Below are positions 27,280 to 39,482 of a stretch of 64,000 nucleotides of DNA, one piece after another. This DNA comes from Bacteroidota bacterium (GTDB lineage: Bacteria > Bacteroidota > Bacteroidia > B-17B0 > Aurantibacillaceae). The position numbers were made by a program, and so were the translations under genes. The first letter of the stretch is position 1, and each line of letters opens with the position of its first letter. Below the pieces are notes generated by a model. The model saw nothing but the letters and a program-made list of their open reading frames with translations, was not told the DNA's origin and did no database searches. Location of the stretch: contig CAUJCR010000047.1 in NCBI GenBank assembly GCA_963169355.1, positions 1-64,000 on the forward strand. The letters are read 5' to 3'.

Positions 27280-28263
27280 TTGAACAATCATCAGCTAAAA
27301 ATAAAAACCATGAAAATGGTACTACTTGTTGGGGTTTTACTCATGGGCATAAAATTTTTAGCCTATTTTATTACACACTCAAGCGCCATTTTAACAGATG
27401 CTTTAGAATCTGTCGTAAATGTATTGGCAGGTGTGTTAGCATTATATAGTTTATACTACGCCGCTAAGCCTAAAGACGAAGATCATCCTTACGGGCACGG
27501 AAAAATTGAATTCATATCAGCTGGTGTAGAAGGTGGCATGATTACACTCACTGGTATTATCATGTGCGTAAATGGTATTATGTCTTTCTTTTATCCTCAT
27601 AGCCTCACCTATGTGGACATTGGTTTTTATCTTACCCTTTTATCGGGTATCATCAACTATATTTTAGCAAAAATTTTAATTCGTCAAGGTACACGCCTTC
27701 ACTCCTCAACGCTTGTTGCCGATGGTAAACATTTGCTGACAGATACTTGGAGTAGCCTAGCTTTGGTAATAGGCTTAGTGATTATTTATTTTACCCAATG
27801 GTTTTGGTTAGATTATGTCATCACTATTTTACTTGGTTGCTTAATTATGTACACAGGAGTTCAACTTATTAAGGAATCTATTTTTAATTTATTAGATAAA
27901 ATAGATTATACCAAAATAGAAAAACTAATCAGTATTTTAAACAACAGCCGCCGAGAAGCTTGGATTGACATTCATAATTTACGGATATTGAAATATGGTT
28001 CCGTAATTCATGTAGATGCACACCTTACATTACCTTGGTATTTTTCATTAGAAGAAGCGCATAAAGAAGTAGATGATTTAGATAAAATTGTGAAACAAGC
28101 CTTGAATCAAGAAATAGAATTTTTTATTCATACCGACCCTTGTATTAGCAACTCATGTACGATTTGCTTAATTAAAGATTGCAAAGTAAGAAAACAAGCA
28201 TTTGTAAAGAAACTAGACTGGAATATGCAGAACATTTTACCCGATCATAAACATAAGGCTTAG
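27280..28263 (+). CDS. cation diffusion facilitator transporter
   Basis: A 327-residue inner-membrane exporter of divalent cations (zinc, iron or cobalt type) with about six membrane helices in the first 200 residues and a cytoplasmic metal-binding domain after. The transport-site aspartates are in AILTDALESVVN and DGKHLLTDTWSSLALV. The loop DEDHPYGHGKIEFISAG has the usual HPYGHGK motif. The tail HTDPCISNSCTICLIKDC is unusually cysteine-rich and may bind metal. The start used is TTG at 27280; an ATG at 27310 is also possible. It is the last core gene before the five-gene helicase/AAA island. Confidence 0.92.
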   Translation: MNNHQLKIKTMKMVLLVGVLLMGIKFLAYFITHSSAILTDALESVVNVLAGVLALYSLYYAAKPKDEDHPYGHGKIEFISAGVEGGMITLTGIIMCVNGIMSFFYPHSLTYVDIGFYLTLLSGIINYILAKILIRQGTRLHSSTLVADGKHLLTDTWSSLALVIGLVIIYFTQWFWLDYVITILLGCLIMYTGVQLIKESIFNLLDKIDYTKIEKLISILNNSRREAWIDIHNLRILKYGSVIHVDAHLTLPWYFSLEEAHKEVDDLDKIVKQALNQEIEFFIHTDPCISNSCTICLIKDCKVRKQAFVKKLDWNMQNILPDHKHKA

Positions 28264-28398
28264 TAGGTAAAGAATGCTGTAAGTACCGCTATTTTTTTTT
28301 GGGGGATGATTGGTTACAATTACACTCCATTTAACTGCATTCTAAACTCCCTTAGTAATACCTTAATGTAAAAAAAAATTATAAAACATGACTCCCCC

Positions 28399-28430
28399 TT
28401 TTGATACATTTTGATAAAATAGTATATTTG
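28399..28430 (+). promoter_or_regulatory. promoter of the helicase-AAA-radical SAM operon
   Basis: TTTG at 28400-28403, a 19-base spacer and TATATTTG at 28423-28430 form a near-ideal Bacteroidota promoter. TTTTGATA occurs twice, at 28399-28406 and 28409-28416, one helical turn apart, over and just after the -33 box, a possible operator. The leader is about 60 bases. Confidence 0.65.
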
Positions 28431-28499
28431 AAAAACAAAAGATAACTCCACAGTTTCATTCTTAAATAGGCCCTTTAACCCTCTAATCATGAAATGTAA

Positions 28500-31400
28500 A
28501 TGGCATACATAAGATTTAATTTCGGCTCAGATAGAAATGATATTTCAAGCAAGATTGCAAATGAGCTTGAAGACAAAATAGATAGTCTATTGTCAAAGTT
28601 TGAATTAGCCTACGATGACTTTTTTAAAATAATAATGGAAAAAGTTATCGGATTTAGTATTTCAAGTTCCAATATGGATAGGGAGCCAGAAAAAAGAGAA
28701 AATCTCATTACAGGTAAAACGTCATATCGAATCTCAAACTTCTTCTTTCGACTTGACTTGGACAATCATGGGCGGTCATTCCTTAAAGGGAATTCAATCA
28801 TCTTGAAAGGGAATCTAAACTTTCGGAAAGACAATCTAGGCTACGATTTTAATGATGTAGATATTAGCGATTTTTATCTTACAACTGATACAGATACACA
28901 ATCATACGAAATCTATCTAAACGGAACTGCTGATTACAAAAACAAGAATAAGGCACAATATTATCAATCGAACGGAGCCAATTTGATTACGCTTGATTTG
29001 GCAACAAATGTTCCATTCATAGTCAATCCAACCAAGTTCAAAAATTTTGCAAGTAATTGGCGAGATTATCTAGAATTTGAAAAAGCAGCGACTGTAAATA
29101 ACATAAAATACTTCCCTATTAGTAGTGAGATAAAATATTCATCTGTTTGCGAAGTGTCGGACAATGCTACTAACCGAGAAACTTTTGAAAAAGATATCAT
29201 TCAGGCAAGCAATGGAAACCTTTATATTGAAAGTTCAAATGAAAAATTATTCGGTAATGAAACTCCATACATATTATTGACAGTAAAGGTTAAAAAAGAA
29301 GACTTTGAAAAGGTTAGATTTAATGAATCTAAAATCAAACAATTCACAAAACAGCAATTACACATCATTGGCAAAAGAGACATCACTAAGTTAAAAGAAA
29401 TGCTTGATGAATTAAAAAAGACTGATGAAGAACGTAAACAAAGTGGAAAAGTATTACCAGAGATAAAAGGATTTGAAATTGACGAAAACCTTCCACCCAA
29501 AATTTCAAATAATGATGTTACATTATATTTTCTCGTAGCAGATGAAACAAGTTATAAAAAGAATGCAGATGTAAAGGAAGAGATTGACAGAATGGGGCAA
29601 GAACTATTTGTTGCACACATTGCTTCAGGTGATATAGCCCTTTATACAAGAGGGAAAACAGCTCTTGACAAATTAGAAAGTGGTGATGTAAAAAATCCAT
29701 ACTTAGCAGGATTGCTGATAGAACCACAGAGATTTGAAAACAAGATTGAGTATTACAATGAAACAAATGTTGATTTTGCATTGAAAAAACTCAATCCAAG
29801 TCAAAAACAAGCAATTATCAAATGTTTGAATAGTAACAGTATTTTTTGCTTGCAAGGGCCTCCAGGAACTGGGAAAACCCAAACAATTACAGAACTTGTT
29901 TATCAATACAATAAAATGGGAAAGAAAGTATTGCTTTCCTCTCAAACGCATATTGCAATCGATAATGTTATTGAGCGTTTACCAAAAGAGCTAAACATTT
30001 TACCCTTACGTCTTGTGCGAGACAGGAGTAAGGCAAATGCTCAATATTTACCCGAAAAACTTTTGGATAATCTCTATGATGCTGCTTATACTAAATATAA
30101 GGGCAAGATTGACGATTACCACGCCTATGAAAAAAACATCAATGAATTATTAAGAACTTTTGAAGATAACAGAACAAGGTATGAGAATATTGGGAAACGC
30201 CTAGATTCTGTAAAAAAGTCGGAAGTAGAACTCAATTATCTTACTCAACAATTATCAAAACTCCGTTCTGATGAAAACACATTAAACTCTGAATTAAAAG
30301 GTTTAAAAAATCAGAGGGAGCTCTTCTCTGAATATTTCAGAACAAGGCTCCCATTTGAAGCTGTTTTGCCTGAATTTGTTTACGAACCGATTCTACCCGA
30401 ATTAAACAAACTGGCAAATAAATACAGACTTGAACTACAAAACGATTTATATAATTATGCAATTTCATTTAAGAGAATTGCCGGAAAATCAAGAATAGAG
30501 CATTTAAATAAATTACTACAAGGTAAAGAAAAGCCGAAAGAAGTTGAAGAAATAGAAAGTGAAATTGCAGAAATAAATTCAGCAATTCAAACAATGGAGA
30601 AGCTAAAACAGGACACCACGGCATTACGAAGCGAAATATCTAAAAAACTACAACGGAAAAAGGACTTAGATCGTAAACAAGAAGATTCTGGAGTAACCAC
30701 CCTTAATCTTAATAATGAGAAATTTTATTTTGCGTCAAGTCAAACGACTAATCCTAAGCAAAAAATTCAACAGGAATTAAATGCGATTGAAAACTTCTTA
30801 AAAGAATGGAACGAAATACTAGCAATGACATTCAGTAAAGGTTTTTATGACAAATTGATAGATAAGAGTGACGAATGTCAAACAAAAATTAACAAAATAG
30901 AAGATGAGATAAAACGAATGAGTGCAAGCTCATTACTATTAAAAGTGAAAATTGATGAACAGAACGATCCTATTGGTTCAGAAAGAAAAAAACTATCAGA
31001 ATACTTTAATGAATTCTATTTGAATAAGCTAAATGGAGCATCCTTGCCAGAATCAGAACAAGAAAAGTTTATTGAAATCAAAAAATTCATAGAAACTGAG
31101 AAATCAAAGTTTGAAGAATTCAAAACAAGGTTTAAAAAACTGCAACCCATTTACGAATCATTGTCAAAATTCTTAGAGAAGCGTGAAGAATTTACCAAAC
31201 AACAAAGACCAAAATTTACTGAAACACTGCTCAAAAACAACGCTAATGTTTACGGCATAACCTGCACTTCAAGCCCATATTTCAAAAGTTCAACAATAGT
31301 TGGTACAGACGATAATCGAAAAAAAGAAAAAAATAACCAAGAAAATATAGAAGTTGGAGATGTAGATATTCGAAGAATTGATTTTGATGTTGTTATTATT

Positions 31401-32453
31401 GATGAAGTTTCTAAAGCAACTCCCATAGAAATGCTAATACCAATAATTTACGGAAAATCAGTAATTCTTGTTGGCGACCAACGACAACTGCCCCCCATCT
31501 TCAAATATCGTGAATCAATGTTTGATGGATTTGATGAACAAAGCAAAAAAAGAATACTGCGTGGAAAATCATTGAATGATTACAAAGTGATGGTAGAGCA
31601 CAGTTTGTTTGAAGAAATTTATAACAAATTAAAACATAACAAAGCGATGTTAACGCAACAATATCGTTTCAATGAGGACATAATGAATTGTGTTAATGTA
31701 TTTTATGATAATAAATTGCAGCTCGGTGCTGGAAAAGAGCAGAATAATAAAAAACGACACTATCTTGATGTAAGTATCACTAATCACAAAGGAGGGCAAA
31801 CACCTTTATTTGTTCGAAATAATAACACCTATTGGTTTGACAGCCATCTTTGGCCCGACCGTTCTATTGCATATGCTGAAATTAAAGAAGGTGAAACATC
31901 TTATAGAAACCCGCTTGAAGTTAAAATTACTGTCGAATTGTTGTTGCTACTTGAAAAAGGATATGGCGAATTAAAAAAGAATAATCCGGAAGAATACAAG
32001 ATGGCTTCGGGCGAAGGCGATAAACCAAGTGTTGCGATTATTTCTATGTATGGAAAACATATTGCAAGCATAAGGCAAGAATTGCAAGCTAGAAAAATGA
32101 AAATCAAATCTTTCGAGAATATCTCGCTTGATATTTCTACTGTAGATAACTACCAAGGAAAGGAACAGGATATTGTAATTGTCAACATGGTTGCCAACAA
32201 TAAAGGAGGAAAACCCGGTGAGTTTTTGCAAAAATTCAATCGTATCAATGTGGCCATTTCACGCTCGCGGACCATGTTGATAATGGTGGGCAGTAGCAAT
32301 TTTTATAATGGAGTTTCAATAAATGTCCCAAAAATGGATGATGGAAAACAAAACATGATGAATGCCTACTATCGAATCTATGAGAAATGTCAATCTAAAT
32401 GGCAGCCGGCATCTGATATTCTAAAAATTAGCAAAGGAACTGATAAGCAATGA
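28500..32453 (+). CDS. SF1 (UPF1/Dna2-like) helicase with long coiled-coil insertion
   Basis: A 1317-residue ATP-dependent helicase. The first about 420 residues match no domain I know. The motor follows: a Q-motif-like LNPSQKQAIIKCL, Walker A GPPGTGKT (residues 453-460), Walker B VVIIDEVSK (D968, E969), motif III GDQRQLPP (992-999), LTQQYRF, motif V STVDNYQGKEQDIVIV (from S1213) and motif VI RINVAISRSR (1248-1257). Between motif Ia and Walker B lie about 450 residues of mostly coiled coil, much longer than in housekeeping relatives. It is the first gene of a five-gene operon and overlaps the next by four bases. UPF1-like helicases are frequent in phage-defence loci; that role is inferred here. 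Confidence 0.88.
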   Translation: MAYIRFNFGSDRNDISSKIANELEDKIDSLLSKFELAYDDFFKIIMEKVIGFSISSSNMDREPEKRENLITGKTSYRISNFFFRLDLDNHGRSFLKGNSIILKGNLNFRKDNLGYDFNDVDISDFYLTTDTDTQSYEIYLNGTADYKNKNKAQYYQSNGANLITLDLATNVPFIVNPTKFKNFASNWRDYLEFEKAATVNNIKYFPISSEIKYSSVCEVSDNATNRETFEKDIIQASNGNLYIESSNEKLFGNETPYILLTVKVKKEDFEKVRFNESKIKQFTKQQLHIIGKRDITKLKEMLDELKKTDEERKQSGKVLPEIKGFEIDENLPPKISNNDVTLYFLVADETSYKKNADVKEEIDRMGQELFVAHIASGDIALYTRGKTALDKLESGDVKNPYLAGLLIEPQRFENKIEYYNETNVDFALKKLNPSQKQAIIKCLNSNSIFCLQGPPGTGKTQTITELVYQYNKMGKKVLLSSQTHIAIDNVIERLPKELNILPLRLVRDRSKANAQYLPEKLLDNLYDAAYTKYKGKIDDYHAYEKNINELLRTFEDNRTRYENIGKRLDSVKKSEVELNYLTQQLSKLRSDENTLNSELKGLKNQRELFSEYFRTRLPFEAVLPEFVYEPILPELNKLANKYRLELQNDLYNYAISFKRIAGKSRIEHLNKLLQGKEKPKEVEEIESEIAEINSAIQTMEKLKQDTTALRSEISKKLQRKKDLDRKQEDSGVTTLNLNNEKFYFASSQTTNPKQKIQQELNAIENFLKEWNEILAMTFSKGFYDKLIDKSDECQTKINKIEDEIKRMSASSLLLKVKIDEQNDPIGSERKKLSEYFNEFYLNKLNGASLPESEQEKFIEIKKFIETEKSKFEEFKTRFKKLQPIYESLSKFLEKREEFTKQQRPKFTETLLKNNANVYGITCTSSPYFKSSTIVGTDDNRKKEKNNQENIEVGDVDIRRIDFDVVIIDEVSKATPIEMLIPIIYGKSVILVGDQRQLPPIFKYRESMFDGFDEQSKKRILRGKSLNDYKVMVEHSLFEEIYNKLKHNKAMLTQQYRFNEDIMNCVNVFYDNKLQLGAGKEQNNKKRHYLDVSITNHKGGQTPLFVRNNNTYWFDSHLWPDRSIAYAEIKEGETSYRNPLEVKITVELLLLLEKGYGELKKNNPEEYKMASGEGDKPSVAIISMYGKHIASIRQELQARKMKIKSFENISLDISTVDNYQGKEQDIVIVNMVANNKGGKPGEFLQKFNRINVAISRSRTMLIMVGSSNFYNGVSINVPKMDDGKQNMMNAYYRIYEKCQSKWQPASDILKISKGTDKQ

Positions 32454-34426
32454 GAAAACTGGGGAATATACGCCTTGCTTTGGCAAGCGATAAATATCAA
32501 ATACAATTTCAATATGCAACGCCTTTGAAGATTGATTTTTTTGCGTTGGCGTTGATGGAAATCATTCAAAGGAAACGACAATTCACAAATAAAACTTTCG
32601 CTGATGTATTATTGATGTTAGAAATTCCAGCCGATTTACACAATATATTTGAGGATAGATTAAATACATTAATAACTGAATATCCTGAAATGGTTTCAAC
32701 CGAAAATGAGGAGGAATATTACTTGTACTACAAAGTATCTTACTTGCACTGCGAAGTATCTTACTTTGATTTAACTGATATAGGAGTGGAAACCTATCTG
32801 TCAAAAGAAATTATTGAGGAAACAAAATCATTTTCGGATGAATTTATTTATGAGCATAGTAATAATTTGCTCACGAAAATTCAAAGTGCAAGTTTTCAAA
32901 ATGAAAACGAAGCTGTAATTATTGATACTAGAAAAGACGAAGCTGACGACATTCTAATTGAAAAATTCACTAAAATAATAAGCAATCAAATCACTAAATT
33001 CATAGCTACTGCGAATATTAAAACGAGAATATTCGATATGCAGATAACTCCCACAAATGCCGTTTACTTGAGGGATAATATTGAAGTGATATTTGAAAAT
33101 AACATAGTGAACTTTAGTCATAAATCTCCAAGCATTCTTCATGCCTTCATTAAACAGCAAAAAACAGAAAAGCAGAAAATTCGTTCAAAAATGTTTCTGT
33201 ATTTCGATGTGCCACACAACCCAATTAATTTGGAAATGGCAACTATTGCTACCAAACGCAGTCAGCCCCTAAAAATGAAAGTCATTTTTGGTAACGAAAA
33301 AATCTTGACAAAAGAAATTTATGAGAAGGGAGTATATGAACGGAATGATTCAACCTTGGTTTATGACATTCCGAATGAAGAAAAGTTTGTGTTTGCTGGT
33401 ATTACTGAAAATGGTCGTACACTTGTTTATAAATATTCTGAGATAGAAATAGAAGGATATACAATTCCGTTGCTGGACGAAGATTACACATATAACAACT
33501 ACCTAAAAGTGTTCTATGATACTTATGAGCAACACAAGGAATTACTGACTGATAAAGAAATAGTAAAATTCATCTTAAACATCTCCCCAAGAGATAAATA
33601 CAAAGAAATAATTAAATCTGTTGCAGAACAAAATAAGAACTCAGATGAGATAGTAAACCTACTATTATCTATAAATGAGAGCACAACAATTGAAACACTT
33701 GAGTTAAACAAACTTTATAATAAACTATTAGAGGAGGGACAAGTAAACTCAATCTTACACAAGTCAAACTTATATGCCTTATATTCTGACTACAGCAAGC
33801 AATTGAATAACCTTAAAGACTTAGGTCTTGAAAATTACTACTCATATAAACCAAAAGATTGGGATGGCTTCATTAAGGAAGCTCGATTGCTAAAAACCTT
33901 TTATGAAAAACTGAGAGAAAAACTAACACCAGAGTATAAAAAGTCTGTAGATGATTTCTTTGCAAGGATAGAAGATGATTACTTCGACTTAGCTCCTATA
34001 AATGAAAGAGTCACTAAAGAACTTGCCATAGGTGATAATTGGCAAAGCGACATTAGTAAAGTACTCAACAAAGCAAAACCAAATTATCTTGCAATTGCAG
34101 CAACTATCAGAAATAAATATGCTGAACAACTAAGAAAATTAGAGAAGCAACTAGATGTCAATTCGGGTAATTTGAGACAAGGTAGAAAACTGATTGAATA
34201 TGTAATTAAGGATAATGATAAAAGCAATAGAGTCTATTCTGCTTGGAGAAACCTTTGCGTACTTGTTCATCCCGAAACAAGTTCAGAGCATAAGTTGATA
34301 AAGGGTTCAGATAATGACAAGAAATCAGCATTAACCAATGCTTTAAGTGTATATAAACTAACTTTTGAAGATAAAAAAGAAAAGCCAAATGATGGTATTA
34401 ACAAATCAAACAACAAAAAGGAATGA
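32450..34426 (+). CDS. unrecognised protein, helicase-operon gene 2
   Basis: A 658-residue soluble protein that I do not recognise. The first about 130 residues are helical (FALALMEIIQRKRQFTNKTF ... LHNIFEDRLNTLITEYPEMV), possibly a winged-helix-like region. The middle (about 150-330) is beta-rich, and the last 300 residues are helical and charged. Near the C-terminus, W599-R600-N601-LCVLV-H607-P608 forms an R-N-x5-H pattern like the catalytic motif of HEPN ribonucleases, but the same stretch also vaguely resembles a J-domain HPD region. The tail is a Lys/Asn-rich disordered end. It is coupled to both neighbours by four-base overlaps, so it probably works in a complex with the helicase and ATPase. 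Confidence 0.8.
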   Translation: MRKLGNIRLALASDKYQIQFQYATPLKIDFFALALMEIIQRKRQFTNKTFADVLLMLEIPADLHNIFEDRLNTLITEYPEMVSTENEEEYYLYYKVSYLHCEVSYFDLTDIGVETYLSKEIIEETKSFSDEFIYEHSNNLLTKIQSASFQNENEAVIIDTRKDEADDILIEKFTKIISNQITKFIATANIKTRIFDMQITPTNAVYLRDNIEVIFENNIVNFSHKSPSILHAFIKQQKTEKQKIRSKMFLYFDVPHNPINLEMATIATKRSQPLKMKVIFGNEKILTKEIYEKGVYERNDSTLVYDIPNEEKFVFAGITENGRTLVYKYSEIEIEGYTIPLLDEDYTYNNYLKVFYDTYEQHKELLTDKEIVKFILNISPRDKYKEIIKSVAEQNKNSDEIVNLLLSINESTTIETLELNKLYNKLLEEGQVNSILHKSNLYALYSDYSKQLNNLKDLGLENYYSYKPKDWDGFIKEARLLKTFYEKLREKLTPEYKKSVDDFFARIEDDYFDLAPINERVTKELAIGDNWQSDISKVLNKAKPNYLAIAATIRNKYAEQLRKLEKQLDVNSGNLRQGRKLIEYVIKDNDKSNRVYSAWRNLCVLVHPETSSEHKLIKGSDNDKKSALTNALSVYKLTFEDKKEKPNDGINKSNNKKE

Positions 34427-35379
34427 GCCATTTAAGTCAAGCACGATTTAATGCTGCACGAATTCAGGCAGAGGAAATCGTGAAAAACGTTCAAAATAGA
34501 ATTGAAAAACTGAACTTGCGTGAAGAAGCTATGCAAAAAATAATACAAAGGCTAAACATTCAGCAATTACAAACTGAGCTTTCATTAGTCAATATTTCAA
34601 TGGACTATCAAGCTTTAGAAAGATTTCAAGAAATTGCCAATAGAGCTAATTCATTTCTATCGGCAATTGATTCTCACATAGCATACAACTTTAACCTTGA
34701 AATCACTGACTATCAAACTGCCTTAAGTCAAATGGGTGAATATATTATTGGTAGTTCCGATAAGATTGTTTCTGAGGCTTTATCAAAAACAGAGGATGAA
34801 CTTTTGAAAACTTACATTATGTCTATCTCTAGATCTGAAAAATATTCTGATAGCGAATCTTTGTTGGAGGCAGCTAGGATCAAAATGAAAAACAGCAAAC
34901 TTTATCAGAAGAATGCTGCAAAGAACACTTTGAAAATTCTTAAAGAGAAGGGTATAAAAGCAGAGGTAACTGAAAGTAAAGATATTTCTAAAACCATTGA
35001 ATCGGCAAATCAGGAGCACTACAATAATTTGGTTACTAAAGAAGTTCGCAATCGAGTTTTAATATCGGTAATTAAAATAGTAAAGGAGCAAGGCTTTATA
35101 GTCAAAAAAGAAAATGTTGAAGAATGTGGTGACCACGCTAAAATTTCTGCTGTAAAACCAAATGGAGAGCAAGTAAATTTCGCAGTTTATTTAGATGGCA
35201 GGTTTATCTATAAATTTCACGAATATGAAGGGCTTTCTTGTGAAAAGGACATTAAGGATTTTGAAAATAAATTTGAAAGCATTTACGGTGTGAAAATTGA
35301 AAACAAAAAAACTATTTGGTCTAATCCAGATAGATTAGGTAAACAAGGATTTCAAAACATAAATAAAAAAGAAAAATGA
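34423..35379 (+). CDS. unrecognised coiled-coil protein, helicase-operon gene 3
   Basis: A 318-residue soluble protein. The first about 200 residues are helical, with a coiled coil early (ARIQAEEIVKNVQNRIEKLNLREEAMQKI). The last about 110 residues are a mixed alpha/beta domain: VRNRVLISVIKIVKEQGFIV, then AVKPNGEQVNFAVYLDGRFIYKFHEYEGLSCEKDIKDFENKF. The pattern of hydrophobic strands followed by Y-E-G-x-S-C and a helix recalls the small DUF2997 domain that accompanies Ycf46-like ATPases; this is by eye only. It is coupled to genes 2 and 4 by four-base overlaps. It could be an adaptor or substrate selector for the AAA+ protein. Confidence 0.8.
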   Translation: MSHLSQARFNAARIQAEEIVKNVQNRIEKLNLREEAMQKIIQRLNIQQLQTELSLVNISMDYQALERFQEIANRANSFLSAIDSHIAYNFNLEITDYQTALSQMGEYIIGSSDKIVSEALSKTEDELLKTYIMSISRSEKYSDSESLLEAARIKMKNSKLYQKNAAKNTLKILKEKGIKAEVTESKDISKTIESANQEHYNNLVTKEVRNRVLISVIKIVKEQGFIVKKENVEECGDHAKISAVKPNGEQVNFAVYLDGRFIYKFHEYEGLSCEKDIKDFENKFESIYGVKIENKKTIWSNPDRLGKQGFQNINKKEK

Positions 35380-37166
35380 GTATAGCCAGTTCAATTGATA
35401 AGTTAAAAAGAGAAATAACGTATAAAAAAATGCTGTTTATTGACGGAAACGTTCAAGATGTTTATTTACACGATGGACAATTTCAGAAACTAAACAATTT
35501 TTTAGTTCAACAATTAAAAGAAAACCAGCAGTTTGAAGAAATTTTTGTTTGGGACAGAATTGAAGGTTTAATTGAAGGTGATCCTATAAAATTAGAAACA
35601 CCCAAAGCAAAAAGTGTTTCTAAGGAGAAGCAAATTGAAGGTTTAGATGTTGATTTTGCCGATGAACAACAACAAGGCGGACAATTCAAACGCCCTACCG
35701 ATTTTTATTCTATTGTATACAAGAACTTATTAAACGACAAACGCAAAGTATGCTTCATTATTAACTATTCAAATTATCTTTTTGGTGGGGAGCAAGGACT
35801 TGCAGATTGCGACCGTGAAGATTTGACAAAACTTGCAAGAGGTGTTCGTGAACAAACCGTTCAAATTAGCAACGGAGGAAGTGCAATAGTATTTGTAACA
35901 ACAAATATTTCTCACATTCCTGTTTCAATCTATCAAAAAAATCCAGACAGCAAGTTAATTACTCTTGGAAATCCAGATAGAGAAGAGCGAAAAGCAATAG
36001 TTGAAAATATTTCTGCTCACTTCAAATTGAGAACAGATTTGGATGCAGATGAACAAAGTAAAATTGACCTGATAGATGGGATGGATAATTTTACTGCTAA
36101 AGAAATAATTCAGGTTGCACAACTTTCCAAAACAACCGATGATATTACTGTTGAAAAACTTCTCTCGTTATATAAGTATGGTAAAAAAGATAGTCCTTGG
36201 GAGCAACTTGAACCAAAGAAAATTCGAAAAATTAGTGAAATTTTAGGTAAACGAGTAAAAGGACAAGATTCGGCAATTGCGAAAGTACGTGAAGTAGTTA
36301 TCAGAGCTAAAACAGGATTAAGTGGCTTACAACATAGTAAGTCTAAGAGTAAACCTAAAGGAGTTTTATTTTTTGCAGGTCCTACCGGAGTTGGTAAAAC
36401 AGAACTTGCCAAATCACTTGCAGAATTTCTTTTCAATGATGAAGGTGCATGCATTCGTTTTGATATGAGCGAATATAATCACGAACACAGTGACCAAAAA
36501 CTGATTGGTGCACCTCCCGGCTATGTTGGATATGAAGCAGGAGGACAATTAACAAACCTCATTAAAGAAAGACCGTTTTGTGTATTGCTATTTGACGAAA
36601 TTGAAAAAGCACATCCAAAAATTCTCGATAAGTTTCTTCAAATTTTGGAAGATGGTCGTTTAACTGACAGTAAAGGTGAAACAGTTTATTTCTCTGAGTG
36701 TATAATCGTATTTACATCAAACATCGGTGCTAACAAGGTTAGAAATAATATGTGCTTTGATGAAATACAAAAGACAATTTTTGAGTCCATTAAGGATAAG
36801 TTTGAAAACGAAATCAATCGTCCAGAACTCCTCGGAAGAATAGGATACAGCAATATTGTAACCTTCAATTTTATTAAAGACCCTGATATTCAAAAGGCAA
36901 TAGCAAGTAGCAAAATCAACCCTATTATTGAATACTTAAAAGAAAGCAAACTCATCAATCTGGAATTCACAAACAAAGATGAGTTCTTAGAATTTGTTCT
37001 TTCTAAAACAGATGCCACTAAAGGCGGGCGTGATATTTTAAACAAATTGGAAGACATCCTCGTTTCGCAGCTTGCAGATTACATTTTCGACAATGACGGT
37101 TACATTTATCCCAATTCAACTGTAAAAGCAACATTCAATAAAGACAAGATTAGTTTTGAGCATTAA
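35376..37166 (+). CDS. two-module AAA+ ATPase: Ycf46-like degenerate module plus ClpB-type module
   Basis: A 596-residue protein. Residues 1-270 look like an AAA module without a P-loop; LFIDGNVQDVYL, IFVWDRIEGL, VCFIINYSNYLFGG and SAIVFVTTNISHIP recall the N-terminal half of Ycf46. Residues 290-596 are a complete Clp/HSP100 module: GKRVKGQDSAI, Walker A GPTGVGKT (335-342), pore loop PGYVGYEAGG, Walker B LLFDEIEKAHP (D407, E408), sensor 1 IIVFTSNIG and a C-terminal D2-small domain with KGGRD. It lacks the Clp N-domain and the ClpB M-domain, and no protease is encoded nearby. It is likely a protein-remodelling unfoldase of the operon. Confidence 0.88.
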   Translation: MSIASSIDKLKREITYKKMLFIDGNVQDVYLHDGQFQKLNNFLVQQLKENQQFEEIFVWDRIEGLIEGDPIKLETPKAKSVSKEKQIEGLDVDFADEQQQGGQFKRPTDFYSIVYKNLLNDKRKVCFIINYSNYLFGGEQGLADCDREDLTKLARGVREQTVQISNGGSAIVFVTTNISHIPVSIYQKNPDSKLITLGNPDREERKAIVENISAHFKLRTDLDADEQSKIDLIDGMDNFTAKEIIQVAQLSKTTDDITVEKLLSLYKYGKKDSPWEQLEPKKIRKISEILGKRVKGQDSAIAKVREVVIRAKTGLSGLQHSKSKSKPKGVLFFAGPTGVGKTELAKSLAEFLFNDEGACIRFDMSEYNHEHSDQKLIGAPPGYVGYEAGGQLTNLIKERPFCVLLFDEIEKAHPKILDKFLQILEDGRLTDSKGETVYFSECIIVFTSNIGANKVRNNMCFDEIQKTIFESIKDKFENEINRPELLGRIGYSNIVTFNFIKDPDIQKAIASSKINPIIEYLKESKLINLEFTNKDEFLEFVLSKTDATKGGRDILNKLEDILVSQLADYIFDNDGYIYPNSTVKATFNKDKISFEH

Positions 37167-37704
37167 TTTCAATATAGCTACTATTAATCAGTGCACTGAA
37201 GCCGAGGGACCAAATAAACGACTTGCCATTTGGTTTCAAGGATGTAACATTCAATGTGCGGAATGTTGCAACCCTAAATTATTTTCACTGAATAAAGCAA
37301 ATATTGTTTCATTAGATGAACTTATTGATATTATTAAAAATGCCAACCGCAATTTTGAAATTGAAGGGGTCACATTTCTTGGCGGTGAACCTACTATGCA
37401 AAAAGGATTATCTGAATTGTCAAAATCAATTCAGAAATTAGGTTTGGGGGTTTTACTATTTACAGGTAGAGTTATAGAGGAATTACCTGAAGAATTAGTA
37501 AAAAGTGTTGATTTAATCATTGACGGCCAGTTTGAAAAAGACAATATTGAAAAGGAACGTAACCTAATTGGATCTAAAAATCAAAGATTGATTTGTATTT
37601 CTGATAGATACAAGAATTCATTAGACTGGTTTTATTCTATAAGATCAAAGAAAGTGGAATTGAATGTTTCCGAAACAATACATATGACAGGGGATGTTTT
37701 GTAA
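37156..37704 (+). CDS. radical SAM 4Fe-4S activase-like protein
   Basis: A 182-residue radical SAM protein of the short NrdG/activase type. The cluster cysteines are C30, C34 and C37 (GCNIQCAEC, CxxxCxxC), with an extra C38 next to them, and the SAM-contact GGE motif is G76-G77-E78 in FLGGEPTMQ. It starts at TTG, 11 bases inside the end of the ATPase gene. Members usually install a glycyl radical on a partner enzyme, but no glycyl-radical protein or ribonucleotide reductase is in the window, so its target may be a protein of this operon or a nucleotide. It is the last gene of the operon and precedes a perfect hairpin. Confidence 0.88.
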   Translation: MSINFNIATINQCTEAEGPNKRLAIWFQGCNIQCAECCNPKLFSLNKANIVSLDELIDIIKNANRNFEIEGVTFLGGEPTMQKGLSELSKSIQKLGLGVLLFTGRVIEELPEELVKSVDLIIDGQFEKDNIEKERNLIGSKNQRLICISDRYKNSLDWFYSIRSKKVELNVSETIHMTGDVL

Positions 37705-37721
37705 CTTAACAATAGTTCTAA

Positions 37722-37747
37722 TTTTTGGATTCTTACAAATCCAAAAA
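37722..37747. terminator. hairpin closing the helicase-AAA-radical SAM operon
   Basis: Perfect 10-base arms, TTTTTGGATT and AATCCAAAAA, around a six-base loop (CTTACA). The arm ends are T- and A-rich, so it could act as a terminator in both directions, though only a loose T run follows. It lies 17 bases past the radical SAM stop. Confidence 0.65.
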
Positions 37748-37814
37748 CAGCAATTTTTTACATTCTACAAAATATAGCAAGAAGGCAAGGTTAAAATACC
37801 GATATTTACCTTAA

Positions 37815-37826: not shown

Positions 37827-39482
37827 ATGTTAAACTATCTTCGTATTCAAAATTTTGCATTAATTGAGCAAACAGACATTGTGTTTAATAATGGTCTAAC
37901 GGTTATTACAGGCGAAACAGGTGCCGGAAAATCAATTATCTTAGGAGCTTTGCACATAGCGCTTGGTGCTAGAGCCGAAACTAATTTGCTGAATGATAAA
38001 AACAAAAAATGTATCATCGAAGCACAGTTTAATATTCAATCTTATCAACTTAAACCTTTTTTTGATTTACACGAACTCGATTTTGAGGAACTAACCACCC
38101 TGCGTAGAGAAATTACACCCGAAGGAAAATCAAGAGCCTTTGTAAACGATACGCCCGTTAATGTATCGGTGCTTAAACAATTAGGTGAGTTTTTAATTGA
38201 TATCCATTCTCAACACGAAACGCTTTTACTAAAAGAAACTGGGTTTCAGTTTGAGTTACTCGACCATTACGCCCAGTGCAGCGATTTATTTTCTAACTAC
38301 AAAAAACAATATCAGTTATTATTACACTTAAAAAAACAACTCGAATTGCTGAGCCAACAAGAGTTACAAGCCAAAAAAGAATTAGATTATTTACAGTTTC
38401 AGTATAACGAACTAGAAGAAGCCAACCTTAAAACGGGCGAACTCCAAAGTTTAGAAGAGGAAAGTAAAACGCTTGAAAATGCAGAAATTATTAAAAACAC
38501 ACTGCATAAAACCTCCCAAATCATTAATAACGGCGATGATACTATTTTAACAGCCATAGCGCAAGCCAAACAACAACTGCAAAGTATTTCAAAATACGGC
38601 AAGCAGTTTCAAGAATTATATGAGCGCTTAAACTCGGTAAGTATTGAATTAAAAGAACTAGCCAACGATGTAGAAAATAGCGCAGACGCTGTGGTGTTTA
38701 ACAATGAACGCTTAGAAGTTGTAAATAATCAATTAGATAAAATAAATCGTTTACTAAAAAAACATCACGTTAATTCCGAAGATGAGTTGTTACAAATAAA
38801 ACAAGACATTGAACAATCGTTACAGCAATTTTCTTCATTAGAATCGAACATTGAGAAGATAAATAAAGACATTATAACAACCGAAAAACAATGTCAAGCC
38901 TTAGCTACTGAGTTATCTACTAAAAGAAAAAAATCCATCAGCAACATTGAGCAACAAATAAAAACCATGTTGGGTAATTTATCCATGCCTAATGCTCAGT
39001 TTAAAATTGAACTTGTACAAAACAAGGAATTAAGTATAAATGGCTTAGATAGTATTACCTTTTTATTTACCGCTAATAAAGGCATGGAATTTAAAGCGCT
39101 ACACAAAACGGCTTCGGGCGGAGAGTTATCAAGGCTCATGCTTTGTCTTAAAGCTTTGTTGGCAGAACGTAAGGCCTTACCTACTATTATCTTTGATGAA
39201 ATAGACACCGGCGTAAGTGGCGATGTGGCAGATAAAATAGGGCAAATTATGTTGAGCATGGGCAAGCAAATGCAAGTAATGGTTATTACGCATTTACCTC
39301 AAATGGCTAGTAAAGGCAACAACCACCTTTATGTATATAAAACCGATACACATCAAAAAACCGTTACCAGTATTAAACCACTTAACGAGCAAGAACGCAT
39401 TGCCGAAATAGCTAAAATGTTGAGCACGGGTTCGCCAAGCGAGATAGCTGTAAAAAATGCTAAAGAGTTATTAAATGCTTAA
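37827..39482 (+). CDS. recN: DNA repair protein RecN
   Basis: An SMC-like ATPase that acts early in double-strand break repair. At 551 residues it is full length. The Walker A region TVITGETGAGKSIILGAL is near residue 30. Two long coiled coils fill about residues 160-370, and the C-terminal half has the ABC signature ASGGELSRLMLCLKAL, Walker B PTIIFDEIDTGVSGDVAD and a D-loop, ending with VITHLPQMAS. It overlaps the following sulfatase gene by eight bases. It borders the novel operon, but recN itself is a core gene. Confidence 0.97.
   Translation: MLNYLRIQNFALIEQTDIVFNNGLTVITGETGAGKSIILGALHIALGARAETNLLNDKNKKCIIEAQFNIQSYQLKPFFDLHELDFEELTTLRREITPEGKSRAFVNDTPVNVSVLKQLGEFLIDIHSQHETLLLKETGFQFELLDHYAQCSDLFSNYKKQYQLLLHLKKQLELLSQQELQAKKELDYLQFQYNELEEANLKTGELQSLEEESKTLENAEIIKNTLHKTSQIINNGDDTILTAIAQAKQQLQSISKYGKQFQELYERLNSVSIELKELANDVENSADAVVFNNERLEVVNNQLDKINRLLKKHHVNSEDELLQIKQDIEQSLQQFSSLESNIEKINKDIITTEKQCQALATELSTKRKKSISNIEQQIKTMLGNLSMPNAQFKIELVQNKELSINGLDSITFLFTANKGMEFKALHKTASGGELSRLMLCLKALLAERKALPTIIFDEIDTGVSGDVADKIGQIMLSMGKQMQVMVITHLPQMASKGNNHLYVYKTDTHQKTVTSIKPLNEQERIAEIAKMLSTGSPSEIAVKNAKELLNA

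Follow-up and report, generated by a model that had tools for sequence, protein, structure and literature searches.

The described systems nearest in kind to the locus analysed here are the AAA+-centred conflict systems with exchangeable effectors. A kinase domain is a feature of the Mokosh systems. Their definition also includes a PLD or NERD domain (PMC10952713). The FtsH ternary conflict systems (vWA-MoxR subsystem 3) combine a dead and then an active AAA domain with a radical SAM partner (Kaur et al. 2020, PMC7159879), and in Hachiman (HamAB) a sensor helicase controls an effector nuclease (PMC12278908). It has also been proposed that eukaryotic nonsense-mediated decay grew from a bacterial RNA-cutting conflict system (PMC5031192).

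The window, which is the whole stretch of 64,000 nucleotides that was analysed, contains five plus-strand ORFs whose consecutive overlaps are 4, 4, 4 and 11 bases (Table 1). The sequence-only reading had described five one-strand genes with these overlaps between a cation transporter and recN, and the ORF coordinates and flanking genes bear this out. The neighbours are a cation-diffusion transporter and recN; the window copy is surrounded by housekeeping genes and by no defence island. The promoter that had been placed before gene 1 is an exact match to the Bacteroidota -33/-7 consensus TTTG-N19-TAnnTTTG, although chance alone would give about one such match in 64 kb. The perfect hairpin noticed after gene 5, TTTTTGGATT-CTTACA-AATCCAAAAA, was also located exactly; its pattern occurs in 0 of 100 shuffles, and it is a probable terminator.

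Table 1. Positions in the window of the five genes, their domains and the signals and genes around them.
Feature	Position	Strand	Remarks
Cation-diffusion transporter	27280-28263		5' flank of operon
Acquired block including operon	28263..37750	+	homology break against closest relative (G018)
Bacteroidota-type promoter match, TTTG-N19-TAnnTTTG	28400..28430	+	consensus match
Gene 1, SF1 UPF1/SMUBP2/DNA2-like helicase, 1317 aa	28500..32453	+	residues 1-429 outside domain call
Gene 2, 658 aa	32450..34426	+	winged-helix-like N-terminal part, helical middle, C-terminal RNase-type domain (predicted)
Gene 2, HEPN-like domain, residues 529-645	34034..34384	+	AlphaFold model, structure comparison
Gene 2, motif R600-x6-H607	34247-34270	+	
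Gene 3, 318 aa	34423..35379	+	coiled-coil N part
Gene 3, C-terminal alpha-beta4-alpha domain, residues 205-307	35035..35343	+	like spermine synthase N-domain/AdoMetDC and KA1 folds
Gene 4	35376..37166	+	
Gene 4, N-domain, degenerate AAA+	35376..36200	+	no Walker A
Gene 4, C part, ClpB-D2-like AAA+	36201..37166	+	Walker A/B, GYVG pore loop, sensor 1, R-finger region
Gene 5, radical SAM protein of NrdG/PFL-activase type, 182 aa	37156..37704	+	CxxxCxxC at 37243-37266, GGEP, GSxNQ
Perfect 10-bp hairpin 3' of operon	37722..37747	+	within acquired block
recN	37827-39482		3' flank of operon

Gene 1 retains every SF1 helicase core motif. Its PDB relatives are DNA2, SMUBP2, SEN1 and UPF1, and profile matches support the original call of a UPF1-like SF1 helicase. 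The best PADLOC match is the Mokosh protein MkoA (PDLC03920, 312 bits), a likeness that covers the helicase half only (residues 268-1278 against 479-1082 of 1112). Mokosh type I/II (MkoA/MkoC) was rejected, as no kinase, PLD or NERD domain is found by Pfam in any of the five proteins. Hachiman may share, by analogy, the working principle of a sensor helicase with an effector nuclease, but it was rejected as well, because it has a helicase of another family and a DNase effector and is without AAA+ or radical SAM proteins.

The assignments of gene 4 to the Clp-type ATPases and of gene 5 to the radical SAM proteins agree with the profile matches. The C part of gene 4 matches the D2 domain of ClpB/ClpC (258-301 bits), with Walker A/B and GYVG intact, and the N part has a VCP-like AAA match in a profile search (E 1e-7). 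Gene 4 is, by these matches, a double AAA+ protein, with a predicted dead first domain and a predicted active, ClpB-type threading second domain. It was rejected as a ClpB disaggregase, since it lacks the combination of Clp_N, active D1 and middle domain and aligns by D2 alone, with 258 bits against a cut-off of 1232. The N-domain is homologous to one that precedes another AAA domain in an AAA+ protein of FtsH-ternary-like architecture (locus L010; hhalign 98.5%). With the FtsH ternary systems the locus has in common a dead N-terminal and an active second AAA domain, a radical SAM enzyme and exchangeable effectors. Unlike in those systems, the second AAA domain is of the ClpB-D2 type (258-301 bits) and not FtsH, and a UPF1-like helicase and a PIN or HEPN domain are present. 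Membership was rejected because the second AAA domain is not FtsH and Pfam finds neither a vWA match nor a MoxR-type protein among the five.

Gene 5 begins with a TTG start codon, which agrees with the alignment to its relatives, and the CxxxCxxC and GGEP motifs are invariant among these. The closest models are NrdG (86 bits) and PFL activase (66 bits), both below cut-off; the TIGR02491 score is 85.9 bits against a curated cut-off of 126.1, and the CxxxCxxC cluster motif is present. A weak 34-bit match to prokaryotic viperin models raises the idea that gene 5 produces a modified nucleotide by which phage transcription is halted, with the helicase and the AAA+ protein as regulators. This is extremely improbable, because the NrdG and PFL-activase models score far higher and the protein has just 182 aa and the NrdG-type GSxNQ signature. 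Viperin itself was rejected at 24.6 bits for NF038283 against a cut-off of 180.

Adjacent genes for a radical SAM protein and a dead-AAA/ClpB-type AAA protein, with a coiled-coil protein nearby, also occur in kinase/FHA/PP2C loci of Firmicutes (L017, L059 and L063). These loci differ in that phospho-signalling genes replace the helicase and PIN genes and the order of genes 5 and 4 is reversed. The radical SAM-AAA pair is accompanied there (L063:2551-12276, L017:7582-18996 and L059) by FHA, PP2C, a Ser/Thr kinase and an MSGPK coiled-coil protein. HH-comparison of gene 3 with the coiled-coil proteins of these loci was not significant, though in L017 the best-matching stretch is in register. The kinase-type loci may represent a second class that shares this core.

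The gene 2 proteins are less uniform. A C-terminal PIN_4 domain was found by profile search in 29 of 35 of them; its acidic site, D/E/D/D, is seen in the displayed sequences and is degenerate in one copy (L040). In the PDB the family profile matches the PIN domains of EST1A/SMG6 best (E 1e-8). The gene 2 protein of the window has no PIN domain, and two others (L022 and L049) are without any nuclease domain. In the AlphaFold model of the window protein the mean pLDDT is 77 and is mostly above 85 in the C-domain. Residues 529-644 align with 1wwp (Z 8.2, rmsd 3.4, 106 residues aligned), a Z that is modest for a helical bundle and could be chance. Csm6/Csx1 follow among the structure matches, and HEPN proteins make up 6 of the 13 top rows. 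No match to Pfam HEPN was obtained in the C-domain, and Foldseek with the whole protein returned noise only (E above 0.4). HEPN domains are defined by an Rx4-6H motif, with a polar residue after the R, at the end of helix 3 (PMC3710099). The WRNLCVLVH stretch of gene 2 has this arrangement (R600-x6-H607, N after the R, end of helix 3). The R-x6-H motif is kept in the nearest relative (L020) and is K-x6-H in L021. The latter protein, from a Bacteroidetes MAG (L021:4951-8244), continues past the HEPN-like domain with a fused Ppx/GppA phosphatase domain.

Taken from sequence and model, these comparisons suggest that an RNase-type domain has been swapped at the same C-terminal place, with PIN in most members and a HEPN-like domain in a Bacteroidota clade. 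In the gene 4 tree the three Bacteroidota form one clade (support 99/98), which fits one effector swap. Gene 2 is most likely the effector, a predicted PIN or HEPN RNase. At the domain level only, a UPF1-like helicase beside a PIN domain with EST1A/SMG6 as its best match resembles the UPF1-SMG6 pair of nonsense-mediated decay; unlike that pair, the window copy carries a HEPN-like domain in place of PIN.

Gene 3 has a C-domain similar to the N-domain of spermine synthase (Z 10.4, rmsd 2.6, 90 residues aligned; Foldseek probability 1.00, E 0.04), and shows weaker likeness to KA1, to RnlA domains and to AdoMetDC. Y268, G270, C273 and D276 are invariant in 31 gene 3 sequences. No RVxGY-like glycyl-radical motif is found in gene 3; the invariant Y-x-G-x-x-C is present. 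Gene 3 is most likely an adaptor and perhaps the substrate of gene 5. Genes 2 and 3 had been put forward jointly as scaffold, effector or adaptor, and this can be narrowed to a likely effector and a likely adaptor, respectively.

The sequence-only reading had asked whether the operon is patchily distributed among close relatives and lies near defence genes, or is instead inherited vertically at the same place in related genomes. None of 19 genus mates and none of 86 family mates has the operon. The single occurrence of gene 3 among 87 family genomes is the window's own, as are those of gene 2 among 20 genus genomes and among 296 phylum genomes. With the gene 4 N-domain as query, the operon was found in 0 of 294 other genomes of the class, where the one match is a distantly related AAA+ protein of another type. 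An empty site exists in the closest relative (G018), whose RecN is 91% identical to that of the window, with the transporter and recN separated by 185 bp on a single contig. Given this empty site and the absence from the genus and family relatives searched, a conserved housekeeping operon was rejected. Homology between the window and this genome ends at the transporter stop codon (28262) and restarts at ~37750. These borders indicate an acquired block that consists of the operon, its promoter and its hairpin, without a recombinase. The five-gene cassette is, by sequence comparison, an acquired block of ~9.5 kb. GC content gives no transfer signal (32.5% in the insert and 33.2% in the flanks).

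All five genes, in an unchanged order, are found at a further 33 genome loci and at 5 loci on plasmids, and an arrangement kept in 38 further loci exceeds chance. The genome scan, which used the gene 4 family motif A[YFK]TGLSGLQ, returned 44 loci: 33 with five genes in order, including two (L033 and L060) with the helicase in two reading frames, 9 truncated by contig ends or decayed, and 2 of the kinase type (L059 and L063). The cassette occurs in at least six phyla, although single phylum assignments may be wrong because some loci are MAG contigs. Five-gene loci are from Bacteroidota, Synergistota, Pseudomonadota, Actinomycetota and Lentisphaerota; Campylobacterota are represented by a decayed copy, and partial loci are present in three more phyla, Verrucomicrobiota, Myxococcota and Planctomycetota. 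The Helicobacter suis copy (L040:1621-11637) has decayed, with a helicase split into several pieces and a degenerate PIN domain. Gene 4 also has a more remote relative (~34% identity) on Rhizobium plasmids, without an annotated helicase or radical SAM neighbour (L104:11989-13812). A minus-strand cluster of four genes (359, 235, 279 and 343 aa) lies 3' of the operon in Pseudoalteromonas (L033:11743-15375) and Colwellia (L038:11475-15107). E. coli genomes contained only ordinary ClpB and other Clp ATPases, and the cassette had no match in phage records or viral contigs. Scans with single proteins were also without a match for gene 3 in genome contigs and for gene 1 in viral contigs.

Compared with its nearest relative, from Paludibacteraceae (L020), the window operon is 86% identical in gene 4, 74% in gene 1, 73% in gene 3, 65% in gene 5 and 57% in gene 2, while identity between the two genomes is 70% for the housekeeping ClpB and 44% for RecN. 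Identities of genes 4 and 1 above those of ClpB and RecN, together with flanks unrelated to those of the window, point to transfer. By these sequence comparisons the five-gene cassette moves between distantly related bacteria.

Plasmids with the cassette are from Acinetobacter, Photobacterium, Polaromonas, Leisingera and Moellerella, and their gene order, helicase, PIN protein, unknown, AAA and 4Fe-4S protein, matches the window. Copies on conjugative plasmids, a predicted RNase effector and a tight operon of overlapping genes would suit a plasmid or island maintenance (addiction) system, in which an RNase toxin is restrained by the other four products. This is quite improbable, given that known addiction modules are far smaller than this operon of ~9 kb with its three ATPase or radical enzymes and that many copies are chromosomal. 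On an Acinetobacter plasmid a DarT-like gene is located upstream, and a second cluster, encoding a small AAA protein, a radical SAM protein and an unknown, lies 3' of the operon (L012:16718-18700).

Beyond these plasmid copies, relatives of the operon are situated beside defence genes. Their flanks include a type I REase (L050), type III CRISPR Cas7/Csm3 (L030) and a PDC-S31 candidate (L020), with single matches to Cas6, Csx1, DrmD and mad8 and two to SoFic. The PADLOC control was one region, with 2 matches in 46 genes of the window, and as it is a single small region the difference is suggestive and not a tested enrichment. Next to the nearest relative's operon (L020:1-1601) the PDC-S31 candidate is accompanied by a small protein with a RNICAH (HEPN-like) motif. 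Together with the absence from all genus and family relatives searched, the empty site and the plasmid copies, these neighbours put the outcome of the check set by the sequence-only reading on the side of defence.

The locus is quite probably some form of horizontally mobile conflict system. The specific reading preferred here, a mobile five-gene conflict system that is most likely anti-phage or anti-plasmid and whose mechanism can be given in outline, is assigned a probability of roughly 0.55; the role in phage defence is predicted from gene content and distribution. Against a conflict function stand the position of the window copy among housekeeping genes, the HEPN likeness without a match at sequence level, the K in place of R in the L021 motif, the gene 2 proteins with no nuclease domain (L022 and L049) or a degenerate PIN (L040), and the absence from phage and viral collections. 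The first and last of these also favour a mobile stress-response or RNA-surveillance operon, a bacterial UPF1 with PIN/HEPN whose task, during radical or oxidative stress, would be to clear aberrant host RNA and not to fight mobile elements. The UPF1-like helicase with an EST1A/SMG6-type PIN, the O2 sensitivity of the radical SAM enzyme and the adjacent recN would fit such an operon. Conflict explains the extreme patchiness, the carriage on plasmids, the swapped effector and the neighbouring defence genes better than surveillance does, and the stress-response operon is considered unlikely.

For the preferred conflict system, a possible course of action can be outlined. By analogy with Hachiman (PMC12278908), gene 1 would be the sensor and would detect foreign or aberrant RNA, R-loops or ssDNA. 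Gene 3 would bridge genes 1 and 2 to the core of genes 4 and 5, and gene 4 would remodel the complex. Gene 5 could place or renew a radical-made modification on a partner (gene 3 or gene 2) that either holds the RNase off or arms it. After triggering, the RNase would cut RNA, and phage growth or the cell would be halted.

The combination had not been recognised as a named system in the sequence-only reading, and the libraries searched agree: NCBIfam (June 2026), PADLOC 2023, Pfam and PHROGs hold no name for the five-gene set. No paper with the set was found in the open literature, a coverage that leaves out subscription papers and most preprints. As far as searched, the five-gene system appears to be undescribed. 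Two of its features are not reported together in the systems found: the PIN-to-HEPN RNase swap on a constant chassis, and the dead/active AAA+ protein with an enzyme of the glycyl-radical-activase type.

If the conflict reading is true, bacterial immunity gains a widespread, unnamed five-gene system. A UPF1-like helicase and an SMG6-type PIN in one operon also make the older proposal on the origin of nonsense-mediated decay (PMC5031192) testable. A bolder and quite improbable version is RNA-surveillance immunity, in which the UPF1-like helicase would recruit an SMG6-like PIN RNase or a HEPN RNase to foreign transcripts, gated by a protein modification made by the radical SAM enzyme and renewed via the ClpB-like unfoldase. 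Were this so, eukaryotic nonsense-mediated decay would have a candidate forerunner, or a parallel, in this system, and immunity its first switch based on radical chemistry.
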